Assembly: GCF_001428895.1 (NCBI RefSeq)
Contig: NZ_LMJA01000001.1
Coordinates: 627,200 to 691,199, forward strand
DNA length: 64,000 nt
Source: Mycobacterium sp. Root265
GTDB lineage: Bacteria; Actinomycetota; Actinomycetes; Mycobacteriales; Mycobacteriaceae
Reading direction: 5' to 3'
The notes beneath the pieces are model-generated. The model saw only the letters and a program-made list of their open reading frames with translations. It searched no databases and was not told the origin of the DNA. This document shows positions 39,784 through 49,811 of the stretch, in pieces. A program made the translations under genes and the position numbers. Position 1 is the first letter of the stretch. Every line of letters starts with the position of its first letter.

Positions 39784-41115
39784 TCAGCCGGGCGTCTCGT
39801 CACACTCGGACCACGTGTAGTGCTGTTCGGCCGCCGTTCCGCCACCGAGCATGAAGGCCCGATGGTGGCGGTCGGCCCGGCCGATGGCTGCCATCCAGGT
39901 GAACAGGGTGCTGACCCGGTTGCTCAGCCCGGTGAGGAACGCGATGTGGATGAAGCCCCACCCCAGCCAGCCCGCGAAACCGGACACCCGGACGGGCCCG
40001 ACCTGCAGCAGCGCGTTGCCCCGGCTGATGTAGGCCGCCGATCCCAGATCCCGGTAGCGGTAGCGCTTGCGCGGTTTGCCATCGAGGTCCCGGCGCACGC
40101 AGGCGGCCACGTGCAGCCCGCCCTGCATGGCGTTCTCGGCGACGCCGGGTAGGTCGTCGCGGCCGACCAGATCTCCCACGATGAAGACCTCGGGGTACCC
40201 GGGCACCGAGAGATCGGGTTCGACACTGATCCGGCCGGCGCGGTCGGCCTGCGCCCCCAGCACTTCGGCGACGTGCCGCGCGAACGGCACGGCCTCGACA
40301 CCAGCGGTCCACAACACGGTGCGCGCGGCGAACTGTTCGGCTGCCCCACCGGACTTCGGCGTCACGGTCACCCCGTCGCGTCCTACATCGGTGACGTGTA
40401 CACCCATGTGCAATTCGACTCCGAGCGCCTCCAAGGTACGGGTGGCCTTGCCCGCCAGGCCCGGAGCGAAACTCTTGAGCACCCGGTCGCCGCCGTCGAA
40501 CAACAACACCTTGGCGTCCTCGGGGGCGATGCTGTGGAACTCGTTGGCCAGCGTCCTGCTGGCCACCTCGCGGATCTGCCCGGCGATCTCCACACCGGTC
40601 GGTCCGCCACCGGCCACCGCGAAGGTCAGCCAGCTGTCCCGTTCGGGCCCCGGGGGCAACGTCTCGGCGATCTCGAAAGCGGTGAACAACCGTTGACGGA
40701 TACACAAGGCGTCATCGAGTGTCTTCATTCCCGGCGCCCATTCGGCGAAATGCTCGTTGCCGAAATAGGACTGCTTCATGCCCGCGGCCACCACCAGGAC
40801 GTCGTAGCCGACCGTGAAGGTGGTTTCATCGGGACGCATGGCTGTGACGGTGCGGGTGCCGGGGTCCAGCCGGATCGCCTCGCCCAGCAGGGTGGTCACA
40901 TTGCGGTGGCGTGAAAGCTCTTCACGCAGCGACCGGCTGATGTGCCCGATGCTCAGCGTTCCGGTGGCGCATTGATACAGCAGCGGCTGAAAGATATGGC
41001 CCGCGCCGCGGTCGAGCAGGGTGACATCCACGTCGTGTCTGCCGAGCCTGCGTGCACAGAACAGTCCGCCGAATCCGCCGCCGATGATGAGCACCCTGGT
41101 GCGTTCGTCGCTCAT
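39784..41115 (-). CDS. Type II NADH dehydrogenase (Ndh-like)
   Basis: This 443-aa membrane-associated flavoprotein passes electrons from NADH to menaquinone without pumping protons. FAD binds at GGGFGG (12-17), NAD(P)H at VAGGGPTGVE, and the second FAD contact is FIVGDL. The C-terminal hydrophobic/amphipathic part (GWLGWGFIHIAFLTGLSNRV) anchors it to the membrane. MSDERT is the start; about 90 bp separate it from the divergent cyclase-like gene. It is likely one of several NDH-2-type paralogues in the genome. Confidence 0.88.
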   Translation of the reverse strand: MSDERTRVLIIGGGFGGLFCARRLGRHDVDVTLLDRGAGHIFQPLLYQCATGTLSIGHISRSLREELSRHRNVTTLLGEAIRLDPGTRTVTAMRPDETTFTVGYDVLVVAAGMKQSYFGNEHFAEWAPGMKTLDDALCIRQRLFTAFEIAETLPPGPERDSWLTFAVAGGGPTGVEIAGQIREVASRTLANEFHSIAPEDAKVLLFDGGDRVLKSFAPGLAGKATRTLEALGVELHMGVHVTDVGRDGVTVTPKSGGAAEQFAARTVLWTAGVEAVPFARHVAEVLGAQADRAGRISVEPDLSVPGYPEVFIVGDLVGRDDLPGVAENAMQGGLHVAACVRRDLDGKPRKRYRYRDLGSAAYISRGNALLQVGPVRVSGFAGWLGWGFIHIAFLTGLSNRVSTLFTWMAAIGRADRHHRAFMLGGGTAAEQHYTWSECDETPG

Positions 41116-41206
41116 CGCTTCGAGGGTAGCTGCATCGTGGGGGCCGACGGCCGGCATCCGCCAAGCGGAGCGCCACCGCTCGTCGCCGGGATAGGCTGCC
41201 GAATTG

Positions 41207-43375
41207 ATGCCGACCACGATTGCGCCCGGCGACCTCGACGCGACAGCGTCGACACCGCACCTGAGCCGGCGCCACCTGTTCTCCCGAGCCAGTATCCAAT
41301 CCAGACTGCTGTTGATGTTGCTCGCGACCAGCGTGCTGTCGGCGGCGATCGTCGGCTTCATCGGATATCAGTCCGGTCACGAGTCGCTGCGGGAGTCGGT
41401 GTTCGACCGGCTGACCGAGATCCGGGAGGCGCAGACACGGACTCTGGGCATCGGCGTGGCGGATCTGAAGGACTCGTTGGTGATCTACAGCCGCGGCGCG
41501 ACGGCGACCCAGGCGCTCCAGGATTTCACCGCCGGCTTCGACCAGCTGGCCGACGCCACGATCAACCCACAGCAGCAACAACGCCTCACCGACTACTACA
41601 CCGGACCATTCGCGCAGAAGGAAAAGGAACAGACCGGCAACGAGATCGATGTGGCCGCGCTGCTGCCCTACGGCAATGCCCAGCGCTACCTGCAGGCCCT
41701 GTACACGACGCCGTTCACCGACGACCAGCAGTCCATTCTGTTCGACGACGCCGGTGACCGCAGCGCATGGTCGGCGGCGAACGCGAAGTACAACGACTTC
41801 TTCCGCGAAATCGTCACCCGCTTCAAATACGAGGACGCGCTGCTCATCGACACCCGCGGCAACATCGTCTACACCGCGAACAAGGGTGTCGAACTCGGCA
41901 GCAACATTCTCAGCGGTCCCTACAAGGGCGGTAACCTCACCGAGGCCTACGTCAAGGCGATGCAGTCCAACGCGGTGGACTACGTGGCGATCACCGATTT
42001 CGGTGAATACCAGCCGGCACCCGCTCCCACGGCGTGGCTGGTGTCTCCGGTCGGGGACGCCGGCCGCGCCGCGGGCGTGCTGGCCATGCAGTTCCCCATC
42101 TCGAAGATCAACCGGTTGATGACGGTGGACAAGCAGTGGGAGGCGTCCGGGATGGGCCGGACCGGAGAAACCTACATCGTCGGGCCGGACGGCCTGATGC
42201 GCTCGGACTCACGGCTGTTCGTGGAGGATCGCGAAGCGTTCAAACGCGCCGTCATCGAGGCCGGGACGCCCCCGGAGGTCGCGGAGGACTCGCTTCGGCA
42301 GAACGGCACCACCCTGGTGCAACCGGTCGATGGTCCGTCCGCCGACAGCGCCCTGCGCGGTGAACGCGGCACTGTCGTCACCGACGACTACCTCGGGCAG
42401 CAGTCGTTGCAGGCGTACGGACCCGTGGAGATCGAAGGGCTGCACTGGGGAGTGATCGCCGAGATCGATACCGCAGAGGCCTTCGCGCCGGTGTCGGCAT
42501 TCACCCGCACCCTGGTGCTGTCCACCGCGGCGATCATCTTCGTGGTCTCGATCGCGGCCATGCTGCTGGCGCGGTTCTTCGTGCGACCCATCCGACGGCT
42601 GGAAGCCGGAGCCAGACAAATCAGCTCCGGGGACTACGGCGTCACCGTTCCGGTGCTGTCCAGAGATGAATTCGGCGATCTCACAGTGGCTTTCAACGAC
42701 ATGAGCCGCAACCTGGCCATCAAGGAAGATCTGCTCAACGAGCAGCGCAGTGAGAACGACAGAATCATGCTGTCCCTGATGCCGGAGACGGCGGTGGCGC
42801 GCTATCGCGACGGTGAAGAGACCATCTCCCAGGATCATCAGGACGTATCCGTCATCTTCGCCGACATCGTCGGCCTGGAGGAACTCTCGGCGGAGCTGAG
42901 CTCCGAGGAGTCGCTGGCCATCGTCAACCGGTTGGTCCGCCAGTTCGACGCCGCGGCCGACAGTCTCGGGGTGGAACATATCCGCACCCTGCACAACGGG
43001 TATCTGGCCAGCTGCGGATTGAACGTACCTCGTCTCGACAATGTCCGGCGCACAGTGGATTTCGCGATGGAGATGCAGCTGATCGTGAACCGCTTCAACG
43101 GCGAGACCGGCAGCGCGCTCACGCTCCGGGCCGGTATCGACACCGGCACCGTCACCAGCGGCCTGGTGGGGCGCTCGACCCTGGCCTACGACATGTGGGG
43201 CGCCACGGTGGATCTGGCCAACCGGGTGCAGACCGGATCGGATCAGGGCGGCATCTACGTCACGGCCAGGGTGTATGACGCCCTCGGTGAGGAACACCGG
43301 TTCGTCCAGACCGGGGAGGTCGTGGGTGCCGACGGGGCCGAGCCGGTGTGGCGGCTCGTCGAGACCCAGCCGTGA
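41207..43375 (+). CDS. Membrane receptor with HAMP and degenerate class III cyclase domain (copy 1)
   Basis: This 722-aa sensor has a TM helix (about 33-54), a large extracytosolic dCache-like domain (55-435), a second TM (436-457), HAMP (458-508), a linker helix, and a C-terminal class III nucleotide-cyclase fold (about 540-715). The first metal Asp (D553, IFADIVG) and the transition-state Arg (R673) remain. The usual second metal Asp is N597, the base-specifying Lys is R593, and the transition-state Asn is D669, so ordinary adenylate cyclase activity is doubtful. It resembles M. tuberculosis Rv2435c. It overlaps the MscS gene by 4 bp (GTGA). A TAGGCT element lies just upstream. Confidence 0.87.
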   Translation: MPTTIAPGDLDATASTPHLSRRHLFSRASIQSRLLLMLLATSVLSAAIVGFIGYQSGHESLRESVFDRLTEIREAQTRTLGIGVADLKDSLVIYSRGATATQALQDFTAGFDQLADATINPQQQQRLTDYYTGPFAQKEKEQTGNEIDVAALLPYGNAQRYLQALYTTPFTDDQQSILFDDAGDRSAWSAANAKYNDFFREIVTRFKYEDALLIDTRGNIVYTANKGVELGSNILSGPYKGGNLTEAYVKAMQSNAVDYVAITDFGEYQPAPAPTAWLVSPVGDAGRAAGVLAMQFPISKINRLMTVDKQWEASGMGRTGETYIVGPDGLMRSDSRLFVEDREAFKRAVIEAGTPPEVAEDSLRQNGTTLVQPVDGPSADSALRGERGTVVTDDYLGQQSLQAYGPVEIEGLHWGVIAEIDTAEAFAPVSAFTRTLVLSTAAIIFVVSIAAMLLARFFVRPIRRLEAGARQISSGDYGVTVPVLSRDEFGDLTVAFNDMSRNLAIKEDLLNEQRSENDRIMLSLMPETAVARYRDGEETISQDHQDVSVIFADIVGLEELSAELSSEESLAIVNRLVRQFDAAADSLGVEHIRTLHNGYLASCGLNVPRLDNVRRTVDFAMEMQLIVNRFNGETGSALTLRAGIDTGTVTSGLVGRSTLAYDMWGATVDLANRVQTGSDQGGIYVTARVYDALGEEHRFVQTGEVVGADGAEPVWRLVETQP

Positions 43376-44769
43376 ACGAGATCACCGGAGCACCGTGGTT
43401 TGCCTGGGCGGTGGGCATCTCTGTCGGCCTGCCCCTGACGATCGTGCTGCTGACCGAACTGCGCAACGCACTGGTGCGCAGAGGAAGCATGCTGGCTCGC
43501 GCGGTCGGACTGCTGCGCAATTACATCCTGCCGCTGGGCGCACTGTTGCTGCTGCTCACCAAGGCCAACGAGGTGTCCGCGAATGCCACGCCGGTGCGGA
43601 TCATCGCCACGGTGTTCGGATTCGTCGTTCTCATCCTGTTGTTGTCGGGGCTGAACGCCACCCTGTTCCAGGGCGCTCCCGACGACAGCTGGCGCAAACG
43701 TATGCCCTCGATCTTTCTGGACGTGGCCCGCTTTGCGGTGATCGCCGTCGGGCTGGCCCTGATCTTTTCCTATGTATGGGGCGCCAACGTCGGCGGTCTG
43801 TTCACCGCGCTGGGTATCACGTCGATCGTGTTGGGTCTGGCGCTGCAGAATTCGGTGGGCCAGATCGTCTCGGGTCTCCTGCTGCTGTTCGAGCAGCCGT
43901 TCCGCCTCGGCGACTGGCTCGACACCCCGAGCGCGCGTGGACGTGTCATCGAGGTGAACTGGCGCGCAACGCATATCGACACCCGTAGCGGCATGCAGAT
44001 CATCCCCAACTCGGTGCTCGCCGGTGCGTCGTTCACCAATCTGAGCCGGCCGGCCGGTCAGCACTCGATCACGGTGCGCTGCGTGTTCGGTGTGGAGGAT
44101 TCACCGGATGTGGTGTGCGCCCTGCTGGCCCGGGCGGCCAATGCGCTACCGCACTTGCGTGCCGGTGCGACGGCCACCGCCGTGTACAGCGGTGGGCTGG
44201 ACTACCAGGCCTCCATCCCGCTGCGCTCCCCCACCGATGACGTCGCCGCCAGGGCGACGTTCCTGCGTTGGGTCTGGTACGCATCGCGTCGGGCCGAGCT
44301 TCATCTCGATGAGGCCGATGACGATTTCGCGACTCCGGAGCGGGTCGCTGACGCCATGACGATCGTGGCGTCCAGCCTGCGCCTGAAGGGTGCCGAGCTC
44401 GACGATGTGACGTCCCGGGTGCGGCTGGCGCGGTACGGCGCCGAGGAGTCCATTCAGTCACCCGGCCAGGTCCCGACCCGAATGACGTTCATCGTGCAGG
44501 GCCGGGTGAAACTGACGGCGGTGCGTGACGACGGCGTGATCGTCACGGTCCGCACGGCCGAGGAAGGCGACTTCCTCGGCCAGACCACGCTGACCCGGGA
44601 GCCCGTTGCGACGGGCGCGTATGCGCTCGACGAGGTCACCGTCGTGCAGATCGACCGGGGTGACCTGGAGCAGCTCGTCGCCCGGAAACCGGTGCTGCTG
44701 CAGGAATTCGGCAGGGCCATCGAGGAACGCCAGACCGCCGTCCGGCAGGCGCTGTCCGCGACCGACTGA
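43372..44769 (+). CDS. MscS-family channel with C-terminal cyclic-nucleotide-binding-like domain (copy 1)
   Basis: This 465-aa protein has four to five TM helices (about 10-160), then the MscS pore-lining and beta domain (GLFTALGITSIVLGLALQNSVGQIVSGLLLLFEQPF, RVIEVNWRATHID, QIIPNSVLAGASFTNLS). A C-terminal CRP-type binding fold follows (about 350-460). Its phosphate cassette reads GDFLGQTTLTREPVATG: the Glu that normally binds the ribose is Gln404 and the Arg that binds the phosphate is Val412. The ligand may therefore differ from cAMP. It is co-translated with the cyclase-like sensor. M. tuberculosis Rv2434c is the likely relative. Confidence 0.88.
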   Translation: MNEITGAPWFAWAVGISVGLPLTIVLLTELRNALVRRGSMLARAVGLLRNYILPLGALLLLLTKANEVSANATPVRIIATVFGFVVLILLLSGLNATLFQGAPDDSWRKRMPSIFLDVARFAVIAVGLALIFSYVWGANVGGLFTALGITSIVLGLALQNSVGQIVSGLLLLFEQPFRLGDWLDTPSARGRVIEVNWRATHIDTRSGMQIIPNSVLAGASFTNLSRPAGQHSITVRCVFGVEDSPDVVCALLARAANALPHLRAGATATAVYSGGLDYQASIPLRSPTDDVAARATFLRWVWYASRRAELHLDEADDDFATPERVADAMTIVASSLRLKGAELDDVTSRVRLARYGAEESIQSPGQVPTRMTFIVQGRVKLTAVRDDGVIVTVRTAEEGDFLGQTTLTREPVATGAYALDEVTVVQIDRGDLEQLVARKPVLLQEFGRAIEERQTAVRQALSATD

Positions 44770-44908
44770 ACACCGGTGTCGGAGCTGGTCTCGACTCCGA
44801 GTCGCAATCGTTAGCAACCCGCGACCACACCACGCCGCGCTGTTACGCGTGTGACTGCTGAGGCGCATGTTCAACTACCTCACGAAGAAAGCAGCGGCGC
44901 TTGCTTAA

Positions 44909-45934
<1,026 letters not shown>

Positions 45935-45957
45935 TGAGGGCTTGAGCCACCAAAACC

Positions 45958-46001
45958 CAGGGAGCCTGCCGTACCCCCCGAACGGCAGGCTCCCTGCTTT
46001 T
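45958..46001. terminator. Intrinsic terminator between the antigen 85 and MscS copy 2 genes
   Basis: A perfect 15-bp stem (45958-45972 with 45982-45996, arm CAGGGAGCCTGCCGT) with a 9-nt loop is followed by CTTTT. It lies 23 bp after the antigen 85 stop and before the convergent MscS gene, so it can act for both strands. Confidence 0.9.
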
Positions 46002-46020
46002 GTGTGTTCGGGGGGCCCGG

Positions 46021-47430
46021 TCAGGTCGGTTGCACCTGAGCGCCGCGCGCGTCCTCTGCTGCACGGCGGCGCAGTTCGATGGCTTCGCCCAACATCCTGG
46101 CCAGCTGCGGATTGTTCTGTACCACAGAGCTGATGGTGCGGCGGGGAATGGCGAGCAAGGTGGTGTCGGTCAGCGCGACCGCCCCGGTGAGGACCGGCTG
46201 ACGGGTCAACGCGGTGGTCCCGATGTAGTCCCCCACCTCGAGTCGCCCGACGGCAACCTGCTCGCCGATGTCGGTGATCACCGTCAGCTCCAGTTCCCCG
46301 GCGACGATGAAAGCAAGCGCATCCGGCACCGATCCGACCTCTTGGACGACCTCCCCCCGGCAGTAGATCAGCTGACGGCTTTCGGCGATCATGTCGGCGA
46401 CGGTCTCCTCGTCCAGGCCCAGAGCCGACGCGATCCGGCGGGGGTGGGCGGCGATGTGAGTGTCGTCGCCGAATCCGCCGTCGGCTTCGTCGAGGTGCAA
46501 ACCGGCGCGCCGCGCCGCATACCAGGTCCGCTGCAGCAGCGCATTTTTGGTCGAGCCGTCCTCGGCGGGTGATCCGATCGGCACCGACACCCGGTATTCG
46601 CCGGCGCCCAACGCGGATACTCGCGAGTCGACGTCGGCCAGTTTGGCGGGAAGGGCATCGGCGACGGCCCTGAGGGTCTCGACGACGGTGCCCGGCCGGT
46701 CATCGGCGGCAAACGCGAGTGTCGCGGTCGTATAGAAAGCGGCACCGTGCACGCGACTGAGGTTGGTGAACGACGCGCCGGCCAACGTCGCGTTCGGGAC
46801 GATCTGGATGCCGTTGCCGGTGTCGATGTGAATGGAACGCCAGTTGACTTCGAGGACACGACCTTTCCCCGACGGGGTGTCCAGCCAGTCTCCGATGCGG
46901 AAGGGCTGCTCGAAGAGCAGGAACAGCCCGGCGATGACCGGGCCGACCGCCGTCTGCACCGCGAGACCGATGACGATGGATGTCACACCGACCGCGGCGA
47001 ACAGCCCCCCGATATCGGTCCCCCACACCCAGGAGAACAGAACGCCCAGTCCGATCGCGATGACGATGAGCCGGCCGAGGTCGATGAAGATCGAGGGCAG
47101 CCGTTCCCGCCAACTACCGGCACGGGCTTGACCGAACAGGGCCGCATTGGCCCCCGACAGGGCAAACAGGATGACCAGGAAACCGAACATCGTCGCCGCG
47201 AGCCGTGGCCAGGTTGCCTCGGCGTCGGTGTCGTTGAGCTGATCGACCAGGATGAGCAGCGCCAGCGCCGGTAACACCGCGTTGCGCAGCAGCGCCACCG
47301 GACGGGCGTAGCTGCTGTGCCGGCGGGACAGATATTGCTGCACCTCGTTGAGGATCAACAGCGCCACGGGAAGCGCGACCACGACAATGGCGGTCGGCCA
47401 GAACCACGGTTGTGAGATCAGCGCGTTCAT
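46021..47430 (-). CDS. MscS-family channel with C-terminal cyclic-nucleotide-binding-like domain (copy 2)
   Basis: This 469-aa paralogue of the channel at 43372 is colinear with it over the whole length (for example LLFEQPFRIGDWLDTPSGKG, FTNLSR). It has the same helices, MscS beta domain and CRP-type C-terminus. The phosphate cassette GDYIGTTALTRQPVLTG again lacks the Glu (Thr405) and Arg (Val413). This shared change argues for a conserved non-standard ligand rather than decay. ATG 47430 overlaps the cyclase-like stop (ATGA). Confidence 0.88.
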   Translation of the reverse strand: MNALISQPWFWPTAIVVVALPVALLILNEVQQYLSRRHSSYARPVALLRNAVLPALALLILVDQLNDTDAEATWPRLAATMFGFLVILFALSGANAALFGQARAGSWRERLPSIFIDLGRLIVIAIGLGVLFSWVWGTDIGGLFAAVGVTSIVIGLAVQTAVGPVIAGLFLLFEQPFRIGDWLDTPSGKGRVLEVNWRSIHIDTGNGIQIVPNATLAGASFTNLSRVHGAAFYTTATLAFAADDRPGTVVETLRAVADALPAKLADVDSRVSALGAGEYRVSVPIGSPAEDGSTKNALLQRTWYAARRAGLHLDEADGGFGDDTHIAAHPRRIASALGLDEETVADMIAESRQLIYCRGEVVQEVGSVPDALAFIVAGELELTVITDIGEQVAVGRLEVGDYIGTTALTRQPVLTGAVALTDTTLLAIPRRTISSVVQNNPQLARMLGEAIELRRRAAEDARGAQVQPT

Positions 47431-49604
47431 GACGTCACCCGGGTCGGAATCTGCAGTGCCCAGACGGTTTCGGTGCCGTCGTTGGTCGTCACCGTGCCCG
47501 CTTCTTCGAACGTGTAGAAGCCCGTGAGGCTGGTGTGCACGCGGTCGCTGACGAAGATGCCGGGTCGATCTGCGGCCGCATGCACCCGGTGCGCGAGATC
47601 GACCGCCTCACCCCACAGGTCGTAGATCCTGGTGCGTTGGCCGATCAGCCCGCTGGACACCGGGCCGCTGTCGATGCCGACCCGCACCGTCAACCCCGCG
47701 TTGTGCTGCTTGTTGAACAGCTCGATCACCTCCGCGAGTTCGATCGCGAAAGCGACGGTGCGGCTGGCGTGGTCGACTCGCGGAGTGACCAGCCCGCAGG
47801 TCGCCAGAAATCCGTTGTGCAAGCCACGCACCCGCTCGATGCCGTGGTGTTCGGCTGCCGCATCGAAGGACTCGAACAGCGTGTTGAGCAGCCGCACCGA
47901 TTCGTCGGACGCCAACGACCGGCTGAAATCCTTGTAGTTCAACAGCTCTGCGTAGATCACCGAGACGTCGCGGTAATCGCTGCTGATTGTCTTCTCGCCC
48001 CCGCGGAATCGACGGGCGACCGACTCCGGCATCAACGAGGCCAGAAGTTCGTCGTTCTCCCGGCGTTGTTCGTCGATCAGTGCCTGCTTCGTTCTCAAGC
48101 TGTCGCTCATATTGTTGAATTCCGCGGCCAGGTCACCGAACTCATCCTGGGTCGTCACCGGGACGCTGACTCCCAGTTCACCTCCGGTCACCCGGCGCAC
48201 GGCCGAAGCCAACTGCGTCAACGGACGTGTCAGCATCCGGCTGAGCAGCAACGCCAGGATGCACACCACCAACACGATGGCGGCGGTCGACAGCGCGATG
48301 TTACGGGCGAACCTGTTGACCGGGGCCAGTGCCTCGTTCTCGTCGATCTTGGCGACCAGCACCCAATCCAGGCCCGGAATGTCCAACGGCATATAGGCCA
48401 CCAGTGAGGCCGGACCGATGTAGTCGTCATCGGTCACCACGCCGGATTCACCGGCCAGCGCATTGTTGACCGCCAGCGTGTCGACGGGCTGCAGAAGGAC
48501 GCTTCCGTTGACCGCCACCTGCCGTTCGGCGACGTCGGTGGGCGTGCCGTTGTCGACCACCGCGTCGATATAACCGTCAGGATTGGTCACCAGCTCACGG
48601 GAGGCCGAACGCATCAACTTGTCGGAGCCGGCGAGATAGGTTTCGCCGGTCGCCCCCAGTCCGTCCTGCTCCCAGCCGTTGGCACCGGTCATCACATTGT
48701 TGATGCCGTCCAGCGACATCTGCAGGGCGAGAACTCCCACGATGTTGCCGCCGCTGCCGATCGGTGACAGTACCCACGGCGTCGGCTTGTCATAGGAGGG
48801 CGGATAGCGCTCGAAGTCGGTGACGAAGGTCTGGTCGACCGATGTGGCTTGCAGCGCCTCGCGATAACCGTCGGCCAACAACGATGTCCGGTAGGGCCCG
48901 GTGAACAAATTCGTCCCGAGGTCCGCACCCTTGTAGGCGGTGTAGACGGCATTGCCGTTGGTATCGAGCACCAGCGCGTCCTCGAAACCGAACCTCGTCG
49001 TCAGGTCCGCGAAAAAGCTCTGATAGCGCGCGTTCACCGCCGACCACGCACTGGGATCACCGGCTGTCCGCACCGCCAGTGCCTTCTCGAAGTCGCCCCC
49101 GGCCGGAACCGTGTAGGCGTTCTGCAGGTAGATGGCCGCGTTGCCGGTCGGCTCGAACAGCGTCGGGTCGGCCGGCTCACCGGTGCGGGCACTCAACTCG
49201 GGTGCGAACACCGTTTCGTAGAACTTCGCCACGTTGGCCTCGGCGTCGGGCGGCGGCGGGGTGGATTCGAGTTCGGCGAAGGCCGCACCGAATTCGCGGG
49301 CAGCGTTCACCGTCGTCGTCCCGTGCGTGACGATCGAGGCGGCGTCGGTGATCATTCGGTAATAGGCGGTGATTTCCCGCGCCCGGGACTCCCGGAGCTG
49401 CGTCATCCGGGCGAATTCCGCGCTACGCAACGAGTCTGTGCCCGACACATATCCGATGGCGCCGGCGACGAGCACCGACAAGACACTGACCACGAGCAAT
49501 ACGATCAACAATTTGGATTGAATGCCGAGCGACCGACGCGGCCCACCTGAACGGGCGAAGCGTGATGCCACAAGCGACCTCTTCCATCGGACGATCGGAA
49601 CCAT
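47427..49604 (-). CDS. Membrane receptor with HAMP and degenerate class III cyclase domain (copy 2)
   Basis: This 725-aa paralogue of the sensor at 41207 has identical domain order and almost the same numbering: TM, dCache-like domain, TM, HAMP, cyclase fold. It is more degenerate: the first metal Asp is E553 (VIYAELLN), the second is N597, the base Lys is R593, and the transition-state Asn is D669; R673 and D662 remain. Classical cyclase chemistry is unlikely. I start at MVPIVRW; a GTG ten codons upstream is possible. It is co-translated with MscS copy 2. About 220 bp separate it from the divergent membrane gene. Confidence 0.86.
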   Translation of the reverse strand: MVPIVRWKRSLVASRFARSGGPRRSLGIQSKLLIVLLVVSVLSVLVAGAIGYVSGTDSLRSAEFARMTQLRESRAREITAYYRMITDAASIVTHGTTTVNAAREFGAAFAELESTPPPPDAEANVAKFYETVFAPELSARTGEPADPTLFEPTGNAAIYLQNAYTVPAGGDFEKALAVRTAGDPSAWSAVNARYQSFFADLTTRFGFEDALVLDTNGNAVYTAYKGADLGTNLFTGPYRTSLLADGYREALQATSVDQTFVTDFERYPPSYDKPTPWVLSPIGSGGNIVGVLALQMSLDGINNVMTGANGWEQDGLGATGETYLAGSDKLMRSASRELVTNPDGYIDAVVDNGTPTDVAERQVAVNGSVLLQPVDTLAVNNALAGESGVVTDDDYIGPASLVAYMPLDIPGLDWVLVAKIDENEALAPVNRFARNIALSTAAIVLVVCILALLLSRMLTRPLTQLASAVRRVTGGELGVSVPVTTQDEFGDLAAEFNNMSDSLRTKQALIDEQRRENDELLASLMPESVARRFRGGEKTISSDYRDVSVIYAELLNYKDFSRSLASDESVRLLNTLFESFDAAAEHHGIERVRGLHNGFLATCGLVTPRVDHASRTVAFAIELAEVIELFNKQHNAGLTVRVGIDSGPVSSGLIGQRTRIYDLWGEAVDLAHRVHAAADRPGIFVSDRVHTSLTGFYTFEEAGTVTTNDGTETVWALQIPTRVTS

Positions 49605-49811
49605 CGCCGAGACGCAAAGAACGCGCTGCCGCACCCACCGCGTACCGACTGATTAGGTCATCAAGATATGCCGCGATGACCGAATACGCGGCGACCTTTC
49701 GCGAATCAAGCCAAACCACTGCTCGGGCGCGAGACGACGAGGCACCGCGCCGGCGCCGCGGCTTTTGGCTGTGCGGCGGCGATTCGCGCCGAATTATCTG
49801 CGCAGCCGCAA

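Follow-up and report, generated by a model that had tools for sequence, protein, structure and literature searches.

Bacterial cyclic nucleotide-gated (bCNG) channels, known within the MscS superfamily (PMC4560390), combine an MscS-type pore with a C-terminal cyclic nucleotide-binding (CNB) domain. The same architecture is found in two channels of Mycobacterium sp. Root265, each encoded by a gene that overlaps the gene of a membrane receptor with a class III cyclase fold. These two receptor-channel pairs, termed A and B, stand on either side of an antigen 85 (Ag85) gene within a stretch of 64,000 nucleotides of contig NZ_LMJA01000001.1 (hereafter the window, in whose numbering all positions are given), and their residues suggest units that work without cyclic AMP (cAMP). 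In contrast to bCNG channels, compared here by description only, the channels of the window family never carry the cAMP-contacting glutamate and arginine jointly (0/147), and have a receptor gene alongside in 161 of 165 rows.

The nearest described receptors are Rv2435c, for which a double Cache domain is reported (PMC4822843), and the M. smegmatis protein MSMEG_3578, listed as an Rv2435c orthologue (PMC3961136). Both proteins are called adenylate cyclases in published work (PMC7739888, PMC3961136). Pair A is probably of the same kind as Rv2435c/Rv2434c and MSMEG_3578, with MSMEG_3578 carrying the shared motif LHNGYL, read from its published primer. Rv2434c is taken to be the channel, in line with an earlier note on this DNA. 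Among the solved cyclase domains closest to those of the window receptors is that of Rv1625c (Cya), in which Asp256 and Asp300 bind metal, Lys296 and Asp365 the substrate, and Asn372 and Arg376 serve in the transition state (PMC4174876). Unlike Rv1625c, both window receptors lack equivalents of Asp300, Lys296, and Asn372, and receptor B also lacks that of Asp256.

A CNB domain that has lost its cAMP contacts yet remains regulatory is described in the trypanosomatid protein kinase A (PKA) regulatory subunit (PMC10959531), a structure of which (6h4g) is among our structure matches; this protein, however, binds nucleosides, and its pocket glutamates are not seen in the window family. The Ag85 gene looks like an ordinary member of the antigen 85C (FbpC) type, differing in sequence divergence only. 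The parts of the system, namely the bCNG-type architecture and an Rv2435c-like receptor, are known, but the double residue loss across the family was not found stated: the accessible portions of the literature yielded no statement of catalytic-residue loss in the Rv2435c family or of cAMP-residue loss in the channel, and a survey that mentions Rv2435c 10 times and Rv2434c three times (PMC2447327, available in part) may hold one.

Architecture and residue losses of the two pairs

Receptor A (41207–43375, + strand, 722 amino acids) comprises a first transmembrane (TM) helix, a dCache-like outer domain (41384–42481, + strand, approximately residues 60–425, with limits estimated from the model), a second TM helix, a HAMP domain (42563–42715, + strand, residues 453–503, Pfam HAMP 60.8 bits), a signalling helix, and a cyclase-homology domain (42827–43321, + strand, Pfam Guanylate_cyc 122 bits). 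Channel A (43372–44769, + strand, GTG start) follows, an MscS-type channel with a C-terminal CRP-like domain, whose cNMP-binding-like region (44431–44685, + strand, Pfam cNMP_binding 48 bits) lacks the cAMP-contacting Glu and Arg. Pair B lies on the − strand and comprises channel B (46021–47430, 469 amino acids), again of MscS type with a CRP-like domain, in which the cNMP-binding-like region (46111–46365, − strand, 49.5 bits) also lacks both residues, and receptor B (47427–49604, 725 amino acids), with its cyclase-homology domain at 47481–47978 (− strand). From left to right the genes run receptor A, channel A, Ag85, channel B, receptor B, so that the pairs are transcribed towards each other.

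Guanylate_cyc and HAMP score above the Pfam cut-off in both receptors, and MS_channel_2nd and cNMP_binding in both channels; for channel A the predicted structure also supports the MscS-type pore and C-terminal CNB domain. In each pair the receptor stop overlaps the channel start by 4 nucleotides (GTGA in A, ATGA in B). The earlier note had described, twice over and as colinear paralogues, a receptor translationally coupled to an MscS channel that carries a CRP-type domain, and the open reading frames (ORFs), orientation, coordinates, overlaps, and domains all agree with this, as do three motifs at identical residue numbers (551, 596, and 661) in receptors A and B and identities between A and B of 45% for the receptors (690 aligned columns) and 46% for the channels (464 aligned columns). 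The dCache_1 model falls below its gathering score of 45 bits in both receptors (40.4 bits in A, 27.6 bits in B). The structure model of receptor A shows predicted TM helices and an outer domain, with one chemoreceptor model aligning over residues 27–512; the cyclase domain fills the list of structure matches, so that the dCache fold is weakly tested.

Residues were tallied over 143 nonredundant receptors, leaving out 18 duplicate and six out-of-length receptor rows, and 147 nonredundant channels, leaving out 18 duplicate and two out-of-length channel rows. Each row was assigned to A or B according to which tblastn query matched it better, with the outgroup labels of named loci assigned by hand and oddly titled metagenome-assembled genomes (MAGs) kept in A or B. 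The class III cyclase fold is kept in the receptors, with receptor A retaining the metal-1 aspartate (Asp553, codon 42863) but presenting Asn597 at the metal-2 position (codon 42995) and Arg593 in place of the substrate Lys, and receptor B presenting Glu at metal-1, Asn597 at metal-2 (codon 47814–47816), and Arg for the substrate Lys. The substrate Asp and transition-state Arg are kept in both, and the transition-state Asn is Asp in both, such that the order metal-1, metal-2, Lys, Asp, Asn, Arg reads Asp, Asn, Arg, Asp, Asp, Arg in receptor A and Glu, Asn, Arg, Asp, Asp, Arg in receptor B.

The losses extend across the family, with the metal-2 Asp present in two of the 143 receptors (L104 and L180) and the substrate Lys in none. 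Asn occupies metal-2 in 73/77 A rows and 34/37 B rows, and the position is mixed among the 29 outgroup rows. The metal-1 Asp is found in 72/77 A, 0/37 B, and 21/29 outgroup rows, and the transition-state Arg in 12/77, 37/37, and 26/29 respectively, while Gly598 (140/143) and Leu600 (138/143) of the receptor motif are near-fixed. As an internal control, both metal aspartates are present in each of the remaining 13 class III cyclase domains identified in the Root265 genome. A relative with intact residues was sought in the class sample (E ≤ 1e-15); matches came only from genera g1, g102, g143, and g149, and the residues are likewise missing in the rows fetched from g143 and g149. The receptor cyclase-homology domain would thus appear to have lost catalysis, as absent residues predict, but do not prove, inactivity. 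Three receptor genes (L080 in G178, L105 in G133, and L194 in G046) contain a stop or frameshift, through sequencing error or decay, with the channel beside each intact. A D113G substitution in MSMEG_3578 is one of three mutations in the phage-resistant strain LM15, and is reported as not characterized further (PMC10066036).

At the other end of the presumptive circuit, the places of the cAMP Glu and Arg hold Gln and Thr in channel A and Thr and Thr in channel B, with the same loss evident in an alignment to M. tuberculosis CRP. Glu of the phosphate-binding cassette occurs in one of the 147 nonredundant channels (L068), the residue elsewhere being Gln, Ser, Gly, Leu, and others, and none of the 147 has Glu and Arg together. 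Among the five other CNB domains of the Root265 genome, three have both residues and two lack them. The earlier note had treated the receptor as having a working output domain, a reading at odds with the absence of its catalytic residues and of the channel cAMP-pocket residues. Both window CNB domains also match the NCBIfam family 2B encapsulin shell protein model (E 8e-8 for 44431–44685 and 7e-11 for 46111–46365), with scores that fall far short of its cut-off, a hint of a common CNB subtype.

Between close relatives, the ratio of nonsynonymous to synonymous substitution rates (dN/dS) is 0.09–0.13 for whole receptor and channel genes, 0.05–0.11 for the cyclase domain, and 0.11–0.19 for the CNB domain, where the channel reaches its maximum. 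In structure models of both A proteins (pLDDT 82 and 83, pTM 0.57 each), the channel keeps the MscS and CRP folds and the receptor the class III cyclase fold. Given this purifying selection and the folds kept in the models, the pseudo-domains appear to be maintained shapes rather than products of decay, with the CNB domain the loosest.

Pairing, spread, and deep division of the family

Receptor and channel form a nearly constant pair. Across a genus sample of 198 genomes, searched with channel A (E ≤ 1e-40) and receptor A (E ≤ 1e-60), channel matches occur in 160 genomes and receptor matches in 158, with both in 158, a channel alone in two (G089 and G150), and a receptor alone in none. The channel matches of G089 and G150 are weaker (1e-65 and 1e-80), possibly reflecting a divergent or solo channel. 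Among 165 fetched channel rows, which include duplicates from overlapping fetches, 161 have a receptor alongside and four do not, with a 4-nucleotide overlap in 103/165 and a 1-nucleotide overlap in 23/165. Elsewhere in the Root265 genome are two further channel matches, both weak and covering part of the MscS region.

An order sample gave matches in 37/397 genomes, 36 from the window's genus and one from another family, and a class sample in 48/394, with full-length hits outside the window's genus only in g143 and g149, and the MscS part alone in g102. The best 80 of 434 matches include relatives from Mycolicibacterium, Mycobacterium, Rhodococcus, Williamsia, and Microbacteriaceae (e.g. Curtobacterium, Leifsonia, and Herbiconiux). 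Mycobacterial-type pairs also appear under two Bifidobacterium breve titles and in Acidobacteria MAGs (L222, L240, and L257), bins that are probably mislabelled.

Midpoint-rooted trees were built for 84 receptors and for 87 channels, the latter with a long-branch warning. In both, a fully supported branch separates A (55 receptor and 58 channel rows) from all other rows, and another does so for B (19 rows in each tree). A larger draw found the B channel at E ≤ 1e-150 in 37/397 genomes of the genus, and seven genomes (G159, G009, G098, G156, G184, G151, and G510) hold A and B pairs at separate places. Because A and B form separate clades and several genomes hold them apart, they are deep paralogues and not the product of local duplication. 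Other kinds of linked double copy occur as well: L118 (G091) and L119 (G158) each carry two A-type pairs in the same orientation on one contig.

Proposed mechanism and competing explanations

Three observations lead us to favour direct contact: the genes are tightly coupled, residues are lost at either end of what would be a cAMP circuit, and other cyclases with intact metal sites occur in the same genome. We put a probability of roughly 0.5 on a mechanism in which each pair is a dedicated receptor-channel unit that operates by such contact and without cAMP signalling. The receptor, by way of its dCache-like outer domain, two TM helices, HAMP domain, and signalling helix, would sense an extracytoplasmic ligand or the state of the envelope, and sensing would move a cyclase-fold domain that has lost catalysis. 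This pseudo-cyclase would then act by direct contact on the pseudo-CNB domain at the cytoplasmic end of the MscS-type channel encoded by the overlapping gene, and the contact would shift the tension at which the channel opens. A gene fusion was considered as proof of contact, with a 1210-residue frame in Leifsonia aquatica (L259, 3781–7413) not counted, as it departs from L266 near the receptor end in the manner of a frameshift. More tentatively, and at somewhat less than even odds, mycobacteria, some Rhodococcus and Williamsia, and Microbacteriaceae may possess mechanosensitive channels gated by a dedicated transmembrane receptor whose dead adenylyl cyclase touches a dead CNB domain, the ends of an ancestral cAMP circuit having been kept as shapes and the messenger removed.

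Several points weigh against this proposal. Contact between receptor and channel is a prediction, and the cyclase is a dimer whereas MscS is a heptamer, a mismatch in stoichiometry. The cyclase site is not wholly erased, with outgroup rows mostly retaining the transition-state Arg (26/29) and metal-1 Asp (21/29), and with Asp at the metal-2 position in L104 and L180. Likewise, an Arg lies at, or one residue away from, its expected position in 14/147 channels, and the loss of Glu and Arg is not unique to the family, as the two other CNB domains of the Root265 genome that lack them attest. No part of the channel is less conserved or evolves faster than the CNB domain (mean top-residue fraction 0.53; dN/dS 0.11–0.19), whose divergence could point to relaxed constraint rather than a contact surface. 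Furthermore, outgroup rows sit with B in the receptor tree and with A in the channel tree, both midpoint-rooted, which weakens the case for strict joint descent at the deepest level.

The main rival to the contact mechanism is a changed ligand, with the pseudo-cyclase binding a nucleotide without turnover, or the pseudo-CNB domain binding another small molecule. Retention of the folds under purifying selection is compatible with this, as is the partly near-fixed receptor motif (Gly598 in 140/143 and Leu600 in 138/143), and a precedent by analogy is offered by the trypanosomatid PKA CNB domains, reported to have lost the Arg and to bind purine nucleosides (PMC10959531). The trypanosomatid pocket is, however, described in the same source as retaining the ribose Glu and gaining another, whereas in the channels studied here the former is Gln, Ser, Gly, Leu, or others, and where the added Glu would sit, A has Thr or Ala and B has Ser or Ala. 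The pocket residues also differ between the clades, and we regard a changed ligand as possible but rather unlikely.

Less probable still is a working cAMP loop, in which cAMP made by the receptor opens the adjacent bCNG-type channel. The domain order fits such a loop, channels of this type are established in the MscS superfamily, and MSMEG_3578 is listed among adenylyl cyclase genes (PMC7739888). The residue tally nonetheless disfavours it, with the metal-2 Asp in 2/143 receptors, the substrate Lys in 0/143, and the cAMP Glu and Arg together in 0/147 channels. Neither half-site is canonical, A mostly lacking the transition-state Arg (12/77) and B the metal-1 Asp (0/37), and both metal residues are present in the 13 other cyclase domains of the genome. 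We therefore consider a functional loop improbable, and direct contact the better account of the two pairs.

The antigen 85 gene and the twin layout

Between the pairs lies an Ag85C-type mycolyltransferase gene (approximately 44939–45934, + strand), preceded by an upstream region (44770–44938, + strand). It scores higher to Ag85C (E 5e-151 to the Ag85C structure) than to Ag85A or Ag85B, is under strong purifying selection (dN/dS 0.02–0.04 in two comparisons), and encodes Ser164, Glu273, and His305, which align with the Ser-Glu-His catalytic triad of the family. Downstream, a hairpin terminator between the convergent genes (45957–46000) is stable on both strands, with folding energies of −38.3 kcal/mol (z −5.7) on the + strand and −41.6 kcal/mol (z −5.1) on the − strand that none of 200 shuffles matched on either strand. 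The mycolyltransferase and strong terminator that the earlier note placed between the pairs are thus as it read them. At the left edge of the locus, an NADH dehydrogenase-like ORF (39784–41361), as listed from 41361, overlaps receptor A; the ATG at 41115 (MSDERTRVL) is the likelier start, with two close relatives diverging after 41123.

Pair A followed by Ag85C is a recurring gene order. In 27/55 fetched A loci, Ag85 follows A in the same orientation at a median distance of 331 bp, in a set biased to close relatives of the window such that this proportion is not a random rate. A hand count of named A loci, with 6 kb flanks, some cut contigs, and genomes partly the same as the fetched set, gave 15/29. 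Proximity of B to Ag85 is local, occurring in one of 18 B loci of the fetched set (G187), to which Root265 (G000) and G922 add, and these three alone among fetched loci have close Ag85 homologues next to B. B showed no conspicuous conserved partner, as the most frequent clusters of neighbouring genes reach 8/18 B loci. A and B flanking Ag85 is seen in Root265 only among the 21 B-bearing genomes fetched of 37 found, the other 16 of which may hold the twin layout, and the layout itself is of local interest.

Four close genomes all have Ag85, with A alone in G096, B alone in G187 and G922, and both in Root265. Compared with G096, pair B occupies 46009–49760 of the window (− strand; blastn junctions), a segment missing from that genome, and compared with G187, 41124–44785 is missing. 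The Ag85 upstream region is retained where A is absent, from 44786 in G187 or 44764 in G922. Over five flanking segments, G096 and G922 are 94.1, 95.8, 96.8, 96.1, and 90.1% identical, the closest pair of the four (G187 being comparable on three segments), and yet differ in content, one holding A and the other B. Pair B is 85–93% identical among Root265, G187, and G922, near the flank level and slightly lower in the comparisons with G922. In a further genome, G946, relatives of window genes g45–g47 lie to the right of pair B. The simplest reading would be an ancestor with A, Ag85, and B, followed by losses of A or B; alternatively, B may have been gained with later losses, or the pairs exchanged by recombination.

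These data bear on an envelope-stress circuit in which both pairs and Ag85 act together, a possibility we judge very improbable. In its favour are the same-strand position of Ag85C downstream of A in 27/55 fetched and 15/29 named A loci, and the numbering of MSMEG_3578 and MSMEG_3580 (the latter given as Antigen 85-C in PMC6292918), which suggests the same order in M. smegmatis. Against it, roughly one in two fetched A loci lacks a nearby Ag85, Ag85 stands beside B only in Root265, G187, and G922 among fetched loci, the gene persists with its upstream region where A is gone, and the hairpin terminator parts it from B. The naming of MSMEG_3580 in print is not uniform, with Antigen 85-C in one report (PMC6292918) and FbpB, paired with Rv0129c, in another (PMC4632501).

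Of the duplicated circuit with Ag85 at its centre that the earlier note proposed, the constancy of the pair and the recurrence of A followed by Ag85C stand, whereas the deep clades of A and B and the retention of Ag85 without A speak against the remainder. The two-copy layout and the trees it called for were examined, and Ag85 lies between the pairs only in Root265 among fetched loci, one half of what it had named as telling against the circuit. That one pair was recently duplicated in inverted orientation in the Root265 lineage, as the mirrored layout and shared residue numbering might suggest, is rejected by an A/B identity of only 45–46% and by trees in which the copies fall in fully supported separate clades with the nearest kin of each in other genomes. 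The two pairs are old and probably redundant representatives of a single family, and local history placed them beside Ag85C.

Implications

Papers on mycobacterial cAMP include this family in their tallies of adenylate cyclases (PMC7739888, PMC3961136), a count that is too high if the catalytic residues are absent throughout. Under that same condition, the pair would offer a direct way to test whether a receptor can control a mechanosensitive channel with no second messenger in between. Close species with one pair, the other, or both provide a natural test of redundancy.
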